Shown here: piece after piece, positions 22,543 to 39,445 of the stretch
Layout of the letters: the number at the start of each line of letters is the position of its first letter
How positions within the stretch are numbered: the stretch's first letter is position 1
Notes under the pieces: generated by a model
Told to the model about the DNA's origin: nothing
The model's database searches: none
What the model saw: the letters and a program-made list of their open reading frames with translations, nothing else
Program-made: the position numbers and the translations under genes
Source of the DNA: Phytoactinopolyspora limicola
GTDB lineage: Bacteria > Actinomycetota > Actinomycetes > Jiangellales > Jiangellaceae
Assembly (NCBI RefSeq): GCF_011320225.1
Contig: NZ_JAAOEN010000003.1
Coordinates: 124,001-188,000 of the forward strand
DNA: 64,000 bases
Direction of reading: 5' to 3'

Positions 22543-22989
22543 CTACGGCGCGGGCCGCACCATAGGCACGTGCGGGATGCCGTCGTCGAGGAACTCCGGC
22601 CCGGTCGGGCTGAAGCCGAGCTGTTGGTAGAAGTCAGCCAGGTAGGCCTGGGCGTGTAGTTCACACGGCCGGTCCCCGATCCGGTCGAGGGCGACCCGCA
22701 TCAACCGTCGCGCCAGACCGGCACCTCGGGCTTCGGTGGCCACCGCTACCCGGCCGATCCGGGCGACACCGCCGGGTTCGGCGAGCACCCGCAGGTATGC
22801 CACGGGAGCGCCGGCCTGCTCGTACCAGATGTGCAGGGTATCGGGTTCCAGGTCGCGGCCGTCCAGCTCCGGGTACACACACTGCTGCTCGACGACGAAC
22901 ACGTCCACCCGCAACCGCAAGAGCGCGTAGAGCGTGTGGGTGTCCAGATCGGCGAACGACGCGGTGTGCAAGATCGGCCCATCGCTCAC
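22543..22989 (-). CDS. GNAT family N-acetyltransferase (ElaA-like)
   Basis: This 148-aa acetyltransferase carries the ElaA-type opening LYALLRLRVDVFVVEQQC and the acetyl-CoA motif RVAVATEARGAGLARRLM, then YLADFYQQLGFSPTG. The GTG at 22989 is chosen because TAGTCT lies 7 bases upstream (22997-23002), a leaderless-type promoter, and family homology begins just after it. The substrate is unknown. Its promoter touches the 72-bp palindrome. Confidence 0.86.
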   Translation of the reverse strand: MSDGPILHTASFADLDTHTLYALLRLRVDVFVVEQQCVYPELDGRDLEPDTLHIWYEQAGAPVAYLRVLAEPGGVARIGRVAVATEARGAGLARRLMRVALDRIGDRPCELHAQAYLADFYQQLGFSPTGPEFLDDGIPHVPMVRPAP

Positions 22990-23004
22990 GCCGCTCAGAC
23001 TAGC

Positions 23005-23076
23005 CCTTGTCCCCATGATCATGAACACTTTGCCGTGCGATCGCACGGCAAAGTGTTCATGATCATGGGGACAAGG
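23005..23076. repeat. Perfect 72-bp palindrome
   Basis: The arms 23005-23040 and 23041-23076 are exact reverse complements with no spacer. The centre is TGCCGTGCGATCGCACGGCA, and each arm also contains the small palindrome CATGATCATG. It lies between the divergent GNAT and sodium-symporter genes, directly against the GNAT -10 element. There is no U-tract, so it is not a classical terminator. Confidence 0.95.
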
Positions 23077-23145
23077 TGATTGCCAACGGTGGGTTTCGGG
23101 TGCATGATCTTGGTCACCGGACAGCGCGACGAAGCGAGGTTCGCT

Positions 23146-24678
23146 ATGGCATCCGAAGACACCCGCAGCCCGGCTCGGGAGATGTTCACCAGCCGGTTCG
23201 CCTTCGTGGCCGCCGCCATCGGCATGGCCGTCGGCACGGGCAACATCTGGCGATTCCCGCGCGACGTCCACGACTGGGGCGGTGGTGCATTCCTGCTCGC
23301 CGTGGTGGTCGCCAACCTCGTGTGGGCCATCCCGTTGCTGATGGCGGAGTCGTACATGGGCTCCAAGAGCCGCCTCGGCACGGTGGGCGCCTTCCGCGAC
23401 GTCATGGGCCGCAGATTCACCTGGATGGGTGGATTCATGGGGTTCGCGACCATCGCGATCATGTTCTACTACTCGGTCGTGTGTGGCTGGGCCATCCGCT
23501 ACTTCGTGTACGGCATCACCGGCAAGTTCGAGTCCGGCATCACCGTCGACGAGACCCGCACCATCTGGGAGGGTTTCGTCGACAGTCCGGCCCAGACCAT
23601 CACCTTCCACGCCATCGCCATCGTGCTGGTGGGGCTGGTGGTGATCCGGGGGCTCAAGGGCGGCCTGGAAGCTGTGCTGAAGATCGTCGTTCCGGCGCTG
23701 TTCGTCCTGCTGGCCATCCTTGCGGTACGCGCCATGATGTTGTCCGGGTCGGCCGAGGGGCTGCGATATCTGTTCGTGCCGGAGTGGGGTCAGCTCCGGG
23801 ACGCGGAGCTGTGGTTGCAGGCGTTCGCGCAGATGGCGTTCTCCACCGGGGCCGGCTGGGGCCTGTACCTCACCTACTGCGTGTACATGCGCCGCCGGGA
23901 AGACTTCGCGCTCAACGCCACCACCATCGTGGCCGGCAACCACCTGGCGTCTCTGCTGGCGGGCATCGCGGTGATCTGCACCGTCTTCGCGTTGGGCGGC
24001 ACGGCCTTGGGTGAGCAGGCGACGGGCGCCGGCAACGAAGGCCTCACCTTCGTCTACCTGGCCGCACTCTTCGGTGAGATGCCTGGCGGCACGTGGGTGT
24101 TCGCACCGCTGTTCTTCCTGGTTCTTGCCCTGGCCGGGATCTCCAGCCTGATCGCCATGGTCGAGTTGGCCACCCGCAACGTCGTCGATCTCGGTGTGCG
24201 GCGCCGGGTCGCGGTGCCCGGGATCGTCGTCGTCACCTTCCTGGTCGGGCTACCGGCGGCGCTCAACCTCGACTACCTCAGCAACCAGGACAACGTGTGG
24301 GGTATCGCGCTGCTGATCAGCGGGCTGTTCGCGGCCATCGCGATGATGAAGTACGGCCTCGAGCAGGCCCGCCGCGACATGGATGTGGACAGCGACTTCG
24401 GGGTGCGGGCCTGGTGGACGGTGCTGATCCGGCTGTTCCCGGTGATGTTCGCGGTGCTGTTCGGCTGGTTCATCTATCAGTCGGTCGACAGCCCGGGCAA
24501 AGACTGGTGGAACCCGCTGGACACGTTCAGCCTGGCCACGATGGTGGTGCAGTGGGCGGCGGTGGCGGCGATTCTGCTGCTGCTCAACAACGTGCTGGCG
24601 CGGCGGATCCGGCCCGGCCCGATGACCACCGTGGCTACCAGCGACGATCCCGGCCCGAACGGTTCAGCGGGAAGCTGA
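23146..24678 (+). CDS. Sodium-dependent (NSS/SNF family) amino-acid transporter, MetP-like
   Basis: This 510-aa neurotransmitter:sodium symporter has about 12 membrane helices. The first carries the family motif GTGNIWRFP, which in LeuT forms part of the sodium and substrate site. SSLIAMVELATRN matches the later substrate/sodium helix. The ATG 23146 has GCGAGG upstream; a longer frame to 23080 begins just after the palindrome but has no family character. It is followed by a 43-aa membrane protein of the MetS type, which resembles the methionine/alanine system MetPS of Corynebacterium. The substrate is inferred from that. Confidence 0.9.
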   Translation: MASEDTRSPAREMFTSRFAFVAAAIGMAVGTGNIWRFPRDVHDWGGGAFLLAVVVANLVWAIPLLMAESYMGSKSRLGTVGAFRDVMGRRFTWMGGFMGFATIAIMFYYSVVCGWAIRYFVYGITGKFESGITVDETRTIWEGFVDSPAQTITFHAIAIVLVGLVVIRGLKGGLEAVLKIVVPALFVLLAILAVRAMMLSGSAEGLRYLFVPEWGQLRDAELWLQAFAQMAFSTGAGWGLYLTYCVYMRRREDFALNATTIVAGNHLASLLAGIAVICTVFALGGTALGEQATGAGNEGLTFVYLAALFGEMPGGTWVFAPLFFLVLALAGISSLIAMVELATRNVVDLGVRRRVAVPGIVVVTFLVGLPAALNLDYLSNQDNVWGIALLISGLFAAIAMMKYGLEQARRDMDVDSDFGVRAWWTVLIRLFPVMFAVLFGWFIYQSVDSPGKDWWNPLDTFSLATMVVQWAAVAAILLLLNNVLARRIRPGPMTTVATSDDPGPNGSAGS

Positions 24679-39264: not shown

Positions 39265-39293
39265 CGGCCCGCAAACGAGGCGAGTGTGGGACC

Positions 39294-39356
39294 TGCTGGC
39301 TCAGAATTGCGGATGGACCGCCTCTGAAGGTGTCTATTCGCAATTCTGAGCCAGCA
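39294..39356. repeat. Inverted repeat: 18-bp perfect arms, 27-nt loop
   Basis: TGCTGGCTCAGAATTGCG (39294-39311) and its exact complement (39339-39356) flank 27 bases. It starts 30 bp after the pdxS stop. It could act as a terminator or an mRNA 3' stem, but there is no U-run and the loop is long. The design (conserved arms, about 27-nt interior) resembles units of the GATCAG family. Confidence 0.9.
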
Positions 39357-39445
39357 CGTTCATGCCTTCGGCAGGGGTGGCCCTCAAAGCGGTCGACGTG
39401 CAGGCCGATCGGCTGGCCGAGATCGTCGGGTTAGAGTATTTCATC

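Follow-up and report, generated by a model that had tools for sequence, protein, structure and literature searches.

A dispersed palindrome family of Jiangellaceae and its partner gene for a predicted AbiEi-type winged-helix nuclease

Background

The best known dispersed palindromes of bacteria are the REP/REPIN sequences, which depend on HUH transposases (RAYTs). A different kind of protein that recognizes inverted repeats is AbiEi: passages of PMC7319586 describe two monomers of the Streptococcus agalactiae protein on two 23-bp inverted repeats that lie 3 bp apart, and similar repeats for Rv2827c. A DUF559 protein of Caulobacter is assigned, in a passage of PMC12907096, to the Vsr-like group of PD-(D/E)XK. 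In the open-access PMC literature, none of the matches listed was a paper linking AbiEi or DUF559 proteins to dispersed palindromes. We describe a palindrome family that appears to be an undescribed kind of selfish DNA, whose sole gene encodes a predicted DNA-cutting enzyme. Its first member came from a 64-kb window (the whole stretch of DNA analysed, 64,000 nucleotides) of Phytoactinopolyspora limicola (G000).

A perfect palindrome between divergent genes

Positions 23005-23076 of the window equal their own reverse complement, which confirms the perfect 72-bp palindrome without spacer reported in the initial annotation; the nested palindromes noted within it are present, and the genes on either side, for a GNAT acetyltransferase (-) and an SNF-family transporter (+), are indeed divergent. 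With arms of 36 nt and a spacer of 0, it is the top-ranked inverted repeat of the window, where the next perfect palindrome is only 18 bp long and about 1e-15 perfect 72-mers are expected by composition. The second-best inverted repeat (39291-39359) has 28-nt arms, 89% complementary, and a 13-nt spacer. The locus comprises the following features:

23005..23076, unstranded: perfect 72-bp palindrome, predicted solo copy (self-reverse-complement in the inverted-repeat scan)
23012..23069, unstranded: 58-bp family core CCCATGATCAT...ATGATCATGGG, near-identical at ~90 places in the genome
23015..23066, unstranded: 52-nt element of the general form ATGATCAT-N36-ATGATCAT (two 24-nt arms, 4-nt centre)
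23015..23022, unstranded: left end ATGATCAT, invariant across 25 aligned elements, all selected by that end
23059..23066, unstranded: right end ATGATCAT, from the alignment of 25 elements
23023..23038, unstranded: left inner arm of the GAACACTTTGCCG subfamily, which the winged helix is predicted to recognize
23043..23058, unstranded: right inner arm
23039..23042, unstranded: centre, GATC in the window copy, different among copies
23005..23011, unstranded: left palindromic extension, copy-specific (extension statistics from 62 own copies)
23070..23076, unstranded: right palindromic extension, copy-specific
~22543..22989, minus strand: GNAT acetyltransferase, neighbour outside the element, 5' end facing the palindrome (start codon read by eye)
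~23146..24678, plus strand: SNF-family transporter, neighbour outside the element, 5' end facing the palindrome (start codon read by eye)

As RNA, the 101-nt stretch spanning the palindrome folds into a hairpin of -71.7 kcal/mol (z -13.1), with a stem of 34 bp and a loop of 4 nt. The promoter scan gave two promoter-like consensus matches at the locus (shuffles, mean 0.1), one towards the GNAT gene (23086-23059), with its second hexamer within the right end of the palindrome, and one towards the transporter (23080-23108), immediately behind the palindrome. The initial annotation had the palindrome abut the -10 element of the GNAT gene; a TAGTCT seen by eye on the minus strand at 22997-23002 fits that placement but is absent from the output of the promoter scan. 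In a scan of the window locus for intrinsic terminators (GC-rich hairpin followed by a T-tract), 0 terminator-like sites and no T-tract were found.

Copies in the P. limicola genome

The genome search for further copies of the arm that had been suggested at the outset led to about 90 places in G000. The single arm has 90 forward and 89 reverse matches there (reversed control, 0), and a search for the 34-bp inner core, allowing three mismatches at most, finds 44 occurrences. For the 72-base query, the best 40 of 105 candidate places were scored, and all 40 matched at 92% identity or more. In 60 stretches around copies, the 58-bp core CCCATGATCATGAACACTTTGCCG-centre-CGGCAAAGTGTTCATGATCATGGG is near-invariant save for a few central bases, and judged by sequence these places form a single copy family. 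The flanks of these stretches differ from each other, with the exception of L051 and L066 (G000 C18 and C36), whose identical 25-base flanks lengthen the palindrome by ~25 bp per side and possibly reflect a duplicated region. The notion that such palindromes are inherently unstable does not hold for G000, where tens of copies persist.

Perfect palindromic extension beyond the core averages 6.7 nt in 62 own copies, vs 3.5 nt in the null (reached by 0 of 5000 permutations), and copy-specific palindromic flanks of at least 10 nt are present in 15 of the 62 (null, 0.5%), a hint of fold-back copying or of hairpin targets. A pre-existing hairpin as the insertion target was considered for these flanks; at one junction, inspected by eye, G004 has no such hairpin. 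A dispersed repeat of another kind, ~165 bp long and with inverted ends of 24 nt, was seen at L261:8641-8806 (G000:C1 ~774,640-774,805); pieces 77-93% identical to it occur in G001, G002, G003 and G004, and it matches no tRNA and no Rfam family at gathering score.

General form and distribution

The general form of the element is ATGATCAT-N35/36-ATGATCAT with covarying inner arms; it measures 51-52 nt, or 58 nt with the CCC/GGG edges, and relatives have the ends in common and different inner arms. Searching 393 genomes with ATGATCAT-N{33,37}-ATGATCAT (reversed-pattern control, 0) revealed 9-131 elements in 19 of 22 Jiangellaceae and 6 in G026, which lies outside this family. Three other genomes have one pattern match each, with unpaired inner arms in the two that were examined, and the remaining 370 of 393 have none; G006, G007 and G008 (G007 75% and G008 81% complete) carry no element at this strict spacing. 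The palindrome had no match on plasmids and, in an Rfam search, nothing near gathering score.

Phage contigs yielded 111 pattern matches, and in 109 of them no more than 9 of the 17-18 inner positions are paired. These were rejected as relatives and, because their inner arms pair at random, used as a chance control for the genome loci, where 139 of 144 matches (overlapping loci counted) pair at 11-18 inner positions. One ATGATCAT-bounded hairpin on a phage contig (L156:6926-6978) has 11 of 18 inner pairs and may be due to chance. Across 25 elements of many subfamilies, 89.5% of the inner-arm cells are paired, with 107 double changes and a covariation score of 0.449 vs 0.138 shuffled and at most 0.142 slid; the eight end pairs are invariant because the elements were selected by their ATGATCAT ends.

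The partner gene and its flanking palindromes

At a locus of G014, two identical palindromes lie ~1.1 kb apart, and a search with this locus brought up many relatives of the gene that they enclose, several of them likewise beside palindromes. This partner gene encodes a protein of ~310-320 aa with an N-terminal AbiEi_4 winged helix and a C-terminal domain that is weakly DUF559-like. PF13338 (AbiEi_4) scores above its cut-off in all three Jiangellaceae proteins scanned and, over seven proteins, above it in four, below it in two and not at all in one; PADLOC AbiEi models also match, and there is a weak match to solved abortive-infection proteins. In the C-domain, a pattern of D, ExDG, H and RD...D is invariant in 11 of 11 sequences. 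PF04480 (DUF559) matches 3 of 7 proteins in the right place at 12.0-16.4 bits vs a cut-off of 20.6, G000's own copy being without a match, and a profile of the domain matched no solved structure in the PDB. The C-domain is probably a Vsr-like PD-(D/E)XK nuclease.

A profile built from the seven-protein alignment and searched against the 393 genomes identified homologues at E 1e-20 in 143 of them; at the same threshold none was found on plasmids, and viral contigs had none. Strong homologues (at least 417 bits, with up to the best five candidates scored per genome) occupy 57 listed places (L357 and L409 counted as one). These belong to 17 Jiangellaceae and G026, and all 18 genomes have palindromes. 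Among the matches listed, G005 and G021, with ~40 palindromes, have no close partner gene, and G006, G007 and G008 have neither palindromes nor a strong partner match.

Palindromes flank 37 of the 57 listed genes on both sides, 12 on one side and 8 on none (42, 9 and 6 in a relaxed search). Shuffled flanks gave 0 of 57, and 105 control genes, which were drawn from overlapping loci so that some are counted repeatedly, gave 0 two-sided and 8 one-sided cases. Where both sides are flanked, 30-171 nt separate the upstream palindrome from the gene match, and the downstream one starts 0-75 nt behind it, at 0-15 nt in 35 of 37. The parent unit of ~1.1 kb is made up of a palindrome, one gene and a second palindrome; in the units read, the interval between the palindromes showed no transposase gene. 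In G000, the unit of the window's GAACACTTTGCCG subfamily is located at G000:C10:92,304-93,480 (gene, C10:92,356-93,306), and a second unit, of another subfamily, has its gene at C12:12,633-13,556 with a palindrome on each side. Ordinary genes lie between paired elements at L270 and L042, so that not every gene enclosed by two palindromes is a partner gene.

The unit site of G014 was considered for an occupied/empty comparison and rejected. In four genomes that lack the unit, the site is filled with other sequence (gaps of 348-1191 bp), and G020 has a single decayed palindrome of the GTTCCCT type at the unit site (L319:1510-1558), with no gene in the stretch read; for these reasons the site defines no boundary. 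At the Jiangella ALDH/ABC junction (L317, L318, L320, L321), the other sequence of the unit-less genomes is partly VapBC-like by eye.

Weaker homologues were read at 52 of 93 listed places, and the omission of L425 (N-run) left 51, of which 50 are outside Jiangellaceae and one inside (G008, L363); a shuffled control had 1 match in 52. Four of the first 12 have 51-52-nt palindromes with TGATC ends, and a relaxed scan of the 51 found palindromes on both sides in 32. A matched pair of palindromes at 0.72 identity or more is present at 12 of 51 loci (cross-locus pairs, 0); these 12 represent six other families and have different palindrome sequences, and further pairs below 0.72 look matched by eye. 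In G323, the ~950 nt ahead of a divergent partner gene contain four related palindromes (L358:547-1417).

Co-diversification of palindrome and winged helix

The two palindromes of a unit match each other, with an identity of 0.907 within units vs 0.609 between units (best of 10,000 permutations, 0.689), and a palindrome's own partner ranked first in 26 of the 37 two-sided units. Over 49 units, palindrome similarity correlates with the similarity of winged-helix residues 26-55 at r 0.68, compared with r 0.54 for the middle domain and 0.41 for the C-domain alone, and the partial correlation of the C-domain given the N-domain is ~0. When close homologues were thinned to n=37, 23 and 14, r for residues 26-55 was 0.60, 0.51 and 0.33, values reached by 0, 0 and 14 of 2000 permutations; the correlation tests do not model the tree. 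The smallest set (14 units) has no C-domain correlation. In these comparisons the palindrome sequence follows the winged helix, and the C-domain contributes nothing further.

A site compared among G013, G017 and G019 shows a switch of subfamily in both palindromes, and there the N-terminal region is the part of the protein that diverged most. The palindrome behind the gene in G019 is cut down to its right end TTGATGATCATGGGG (L373 vs L383), a remnant that is possibly a deletion footprint. Solos were compared with the units of their own species for the GAACA type: the nearest unit was that of the same species for 63 of 63 in G000 and 26 of 26 in G003, and, more weakly, for 5 of 7 in G004 and 1 of 3 in G002.

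Position relative to genes and insertion history

Positions were determined for 142 elements, a sample from loci fetched mostly for holding elements and with partner units included, relative to genes called with a purpose-made simple ORF/codon-bias caller. Genes around these elements are convergent in 55 cases, tandem in 74 and divergent in 12, and one element lies inside a gene. A gene 3' end is 30 nt away or less for 107 of the 142; the median distance to gene 3' ends is 10 nt for own copies and 6 nt in other genomes (149 of 184 within 30 nt), and the TGA within ATGATCAT serves as the stop codon of 63 gene ends. In tandem pairs the element lies closer to the stop side 60 times and closer to the start side 14 times. 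Given this preference for gene 3' ends and the few divergent placements (7 of 68 own copies in G000), the window copy, with its divergent neighbours, is atypical for the family.

The window copy is missing at the colinear locus of G004. The regions that surround the transporter orthologue in G001, G002 and G003 also lack it, as does that of the GNAT orthologue in G001. Comparison with related strains, another check suggested at the start, marks it as lineage-specific at the loci compared. The expectation that so long a palindrome would signal function or recent arrival was right in its direction, since the copy is lineage-specific and its family is spread over the genome; as a whole, that reading is partly supported.

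Three own copies lie within one 14-kb block, and there is no element at any of the 11 colinear junctions of relatives (5, 1 and 5 comparisons, the second junction being non-colinear in four of five relatives). G021 has an element of its own ~600 nt from the second junction. At the third junction, inspected by eye, 7 nt separate the two genes in G002 and G003, and the own copy has taken the place of the upstream gene's tail and stop codon. Four positions, found incidentally, are common to several species, each copy having the arms of its own species, which suggests concerted change or repeated insertion and not plain inheritance. At base resolution neither an insertion nor an excision was seen: there was no near-identical empty site and no target duplication, the relatives being too diverged for base-level junctions. 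As read from these alignments, the palindromes have spread by insertion.

Proposed mechanism and alternative explanations

We consider it likely that the window palindrome is a solo of a dispersed element, whose predicted parent unit is a palindrome, the AbiEi/nuclease gene and a second palindrome, and whose spread would be driven by the encoded protein. Two protein monomers would bind the two 24-nt arms, one on each, and recognize the inner arm through the winged helix; the 24+4+24 geometry of the element agrees with that of the AbiEi site. The upstream palindrome would double as the operator of the partner gene. DNA cleavage by the C-domain would be the motor of spread and of the inferred transposition, palindromes being copied in trans to new sites with or without the gene. 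New palindromes just behind stop codons would survive best, and the window copy would be a solo of the GAACACTTTGCCG subfamily.

The palindromes might instead be bidirectional terminators or mRNA 3'-end stabilisers that serve the host and multiplied as useful, the AbiEi-nuclease gene merely using two of them. Such a role would suit the 107 of 142 elements within 30 nt of a gene 3' end, the 63 gene ends that use the TGA of ATGATCAT, the orientations (55 convergent, 74 tandem, 12 divergent, 1 inside) and the very stable hairpin. We nevertheless regard this explanation as unlikely: the window copy has no T-tract and 0 terminator-like sites, an own copy stands between two genes whose spacing in G002 and G003 is 7 nt, and neither a fixed length of 51-52 nt with common ends and lineage-specific presence nor subfamilies matched to the winged helix of the flanking gene would be expected. 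A terminator role could be a by-product of the element. It is quite improbable, too, that the palindromes are selected binding sites and that nothing moves, as operators of a dispersed regulon or of a restriction-like defence by the AbiEi-nuclease would be. AbiEi, in passages of PMC7319586, binds inverted repeats of similar size upstream of its own gene, and the upstream palindrome of two-sided units ends 30-171 nt before the gene match; yet solos favour gene 3' ends over promoters, 35 of the 37 two-sided units have a second matched palindrome that begins 0-15 nt after the gene match, and 0 of 11 colinear junctions are conserved.

We attach even less weight to an origin of the palindromes from an unrelated insertion sequence, as MITEs, with the AbiEi-nuclease as a passenger. 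Solos do look like fused terminal inverted repeats and transposition was not observed, but the units read have no transposase gene between their palindromes, gene and palindromes are paired in six further families too, with palindromes of other sequence, and the winged helix covaries with the arms. An assembly artefact at a contig join, named in the initial annotation as the finding that would overturn the palindrome, is so unlikely as to be negligible, because the ~90 core copies in G000 have different flanks; separately sequenced relatives also carry palindromes, some of them in one contig.

Returning to a protein-driven element, a broader version, to which we give slightly less than an even chance, is that these units represent a class-wide undescribed mobile DNA of Actinomycetes, in which one AbiEi-winged-helix/nuclease gene lies between two palindromes predicted to act at once as operator, recognition site and ends, the nuclease making new palindromes by cutting and fold-back copying. 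Such copying would also explain the copy-specific palindromic flanks and why the arms stay complementary while drifting. If this is true, many actinobacterial genes annotated as AbiEi-domain genes would belong to mobile elements and not encode antitoxins. The model would give a testable role to poorly understood AbiEi-domain genes with a DUF559-like tail, and the units would be a natural series of protein/site pairs for reading out DNA recognition by the AbiEi winged helix.

Comparison with known systems

The gene-less copies have the ends of the gene-bearing unit, as MITEs do. Unlike MITEs, the whole element is one palindrome of fixed length, no target duplications were found in comparison with the diverged relatives and there is no known transposase. 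The partner protein resembles DUF559/Vsr-like endonucleases in its conserved D, ExDG, H and RD...D pattern and its weak PF04480 match; it differs from them in scoring below the Pfam cut-off, in its fusion to an AbiEi domain and in its flanking palindromes, and its nuclease activity is a prediction. With the AbiE type IV toxin-antitoxin systems it shares the AbiEi_4 winged helix and the site geometry, as passages of PMC7319586 give it for AbiEi (two 23-bp inverted repeats 3 bp apart). In contrast to AbiE, the two-sided units contain no AbiEii nucleotidyltransferase gene, for which the spacers of 30-171 nt on the upstream side of the gene match and 0-75 nt on the downstream side leave no room; the protein has a C-terminal domain that the AbiEi antitoxin lacks, and its site occurs at many dispersed places and, in addition, behind the gene.

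Identity with REP/RAYT was rejected, as PF01797 is present in 0 of 22 Jiangellaceae (positive control, 5 of 14 known genomes). Whereas RAYTs are Y1/HUH transposases, the partner protein combines an AbiEi winged helix with a weakly DUF559-like domain, and whereas a passage of PMC3733652 gives REP units 20-40 bp and a GTAG/CGTC tag at the stem base, the present elements have CCC/GGG edges, a length of 51-52 nt and ATGATCAT ends. In other respects the resemblance to the REP/REPIN-RAYT systems and REPtrons, as portrayed in parts of PMC2817692, PMC3116915 and PMC3733652, is close: the palindromes are many, short and mostly extragenic (here, 1 of 142 inside a called gene), one dedicated gene, of another protein family, lies between two of them (37 of 57 listed), and a genome has several subfamilies, each beside its gene. 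The family looks like a parallel to REP/REPIN that is based on an unrelated protein, in a bacterial family where the RAYT domain was not found.
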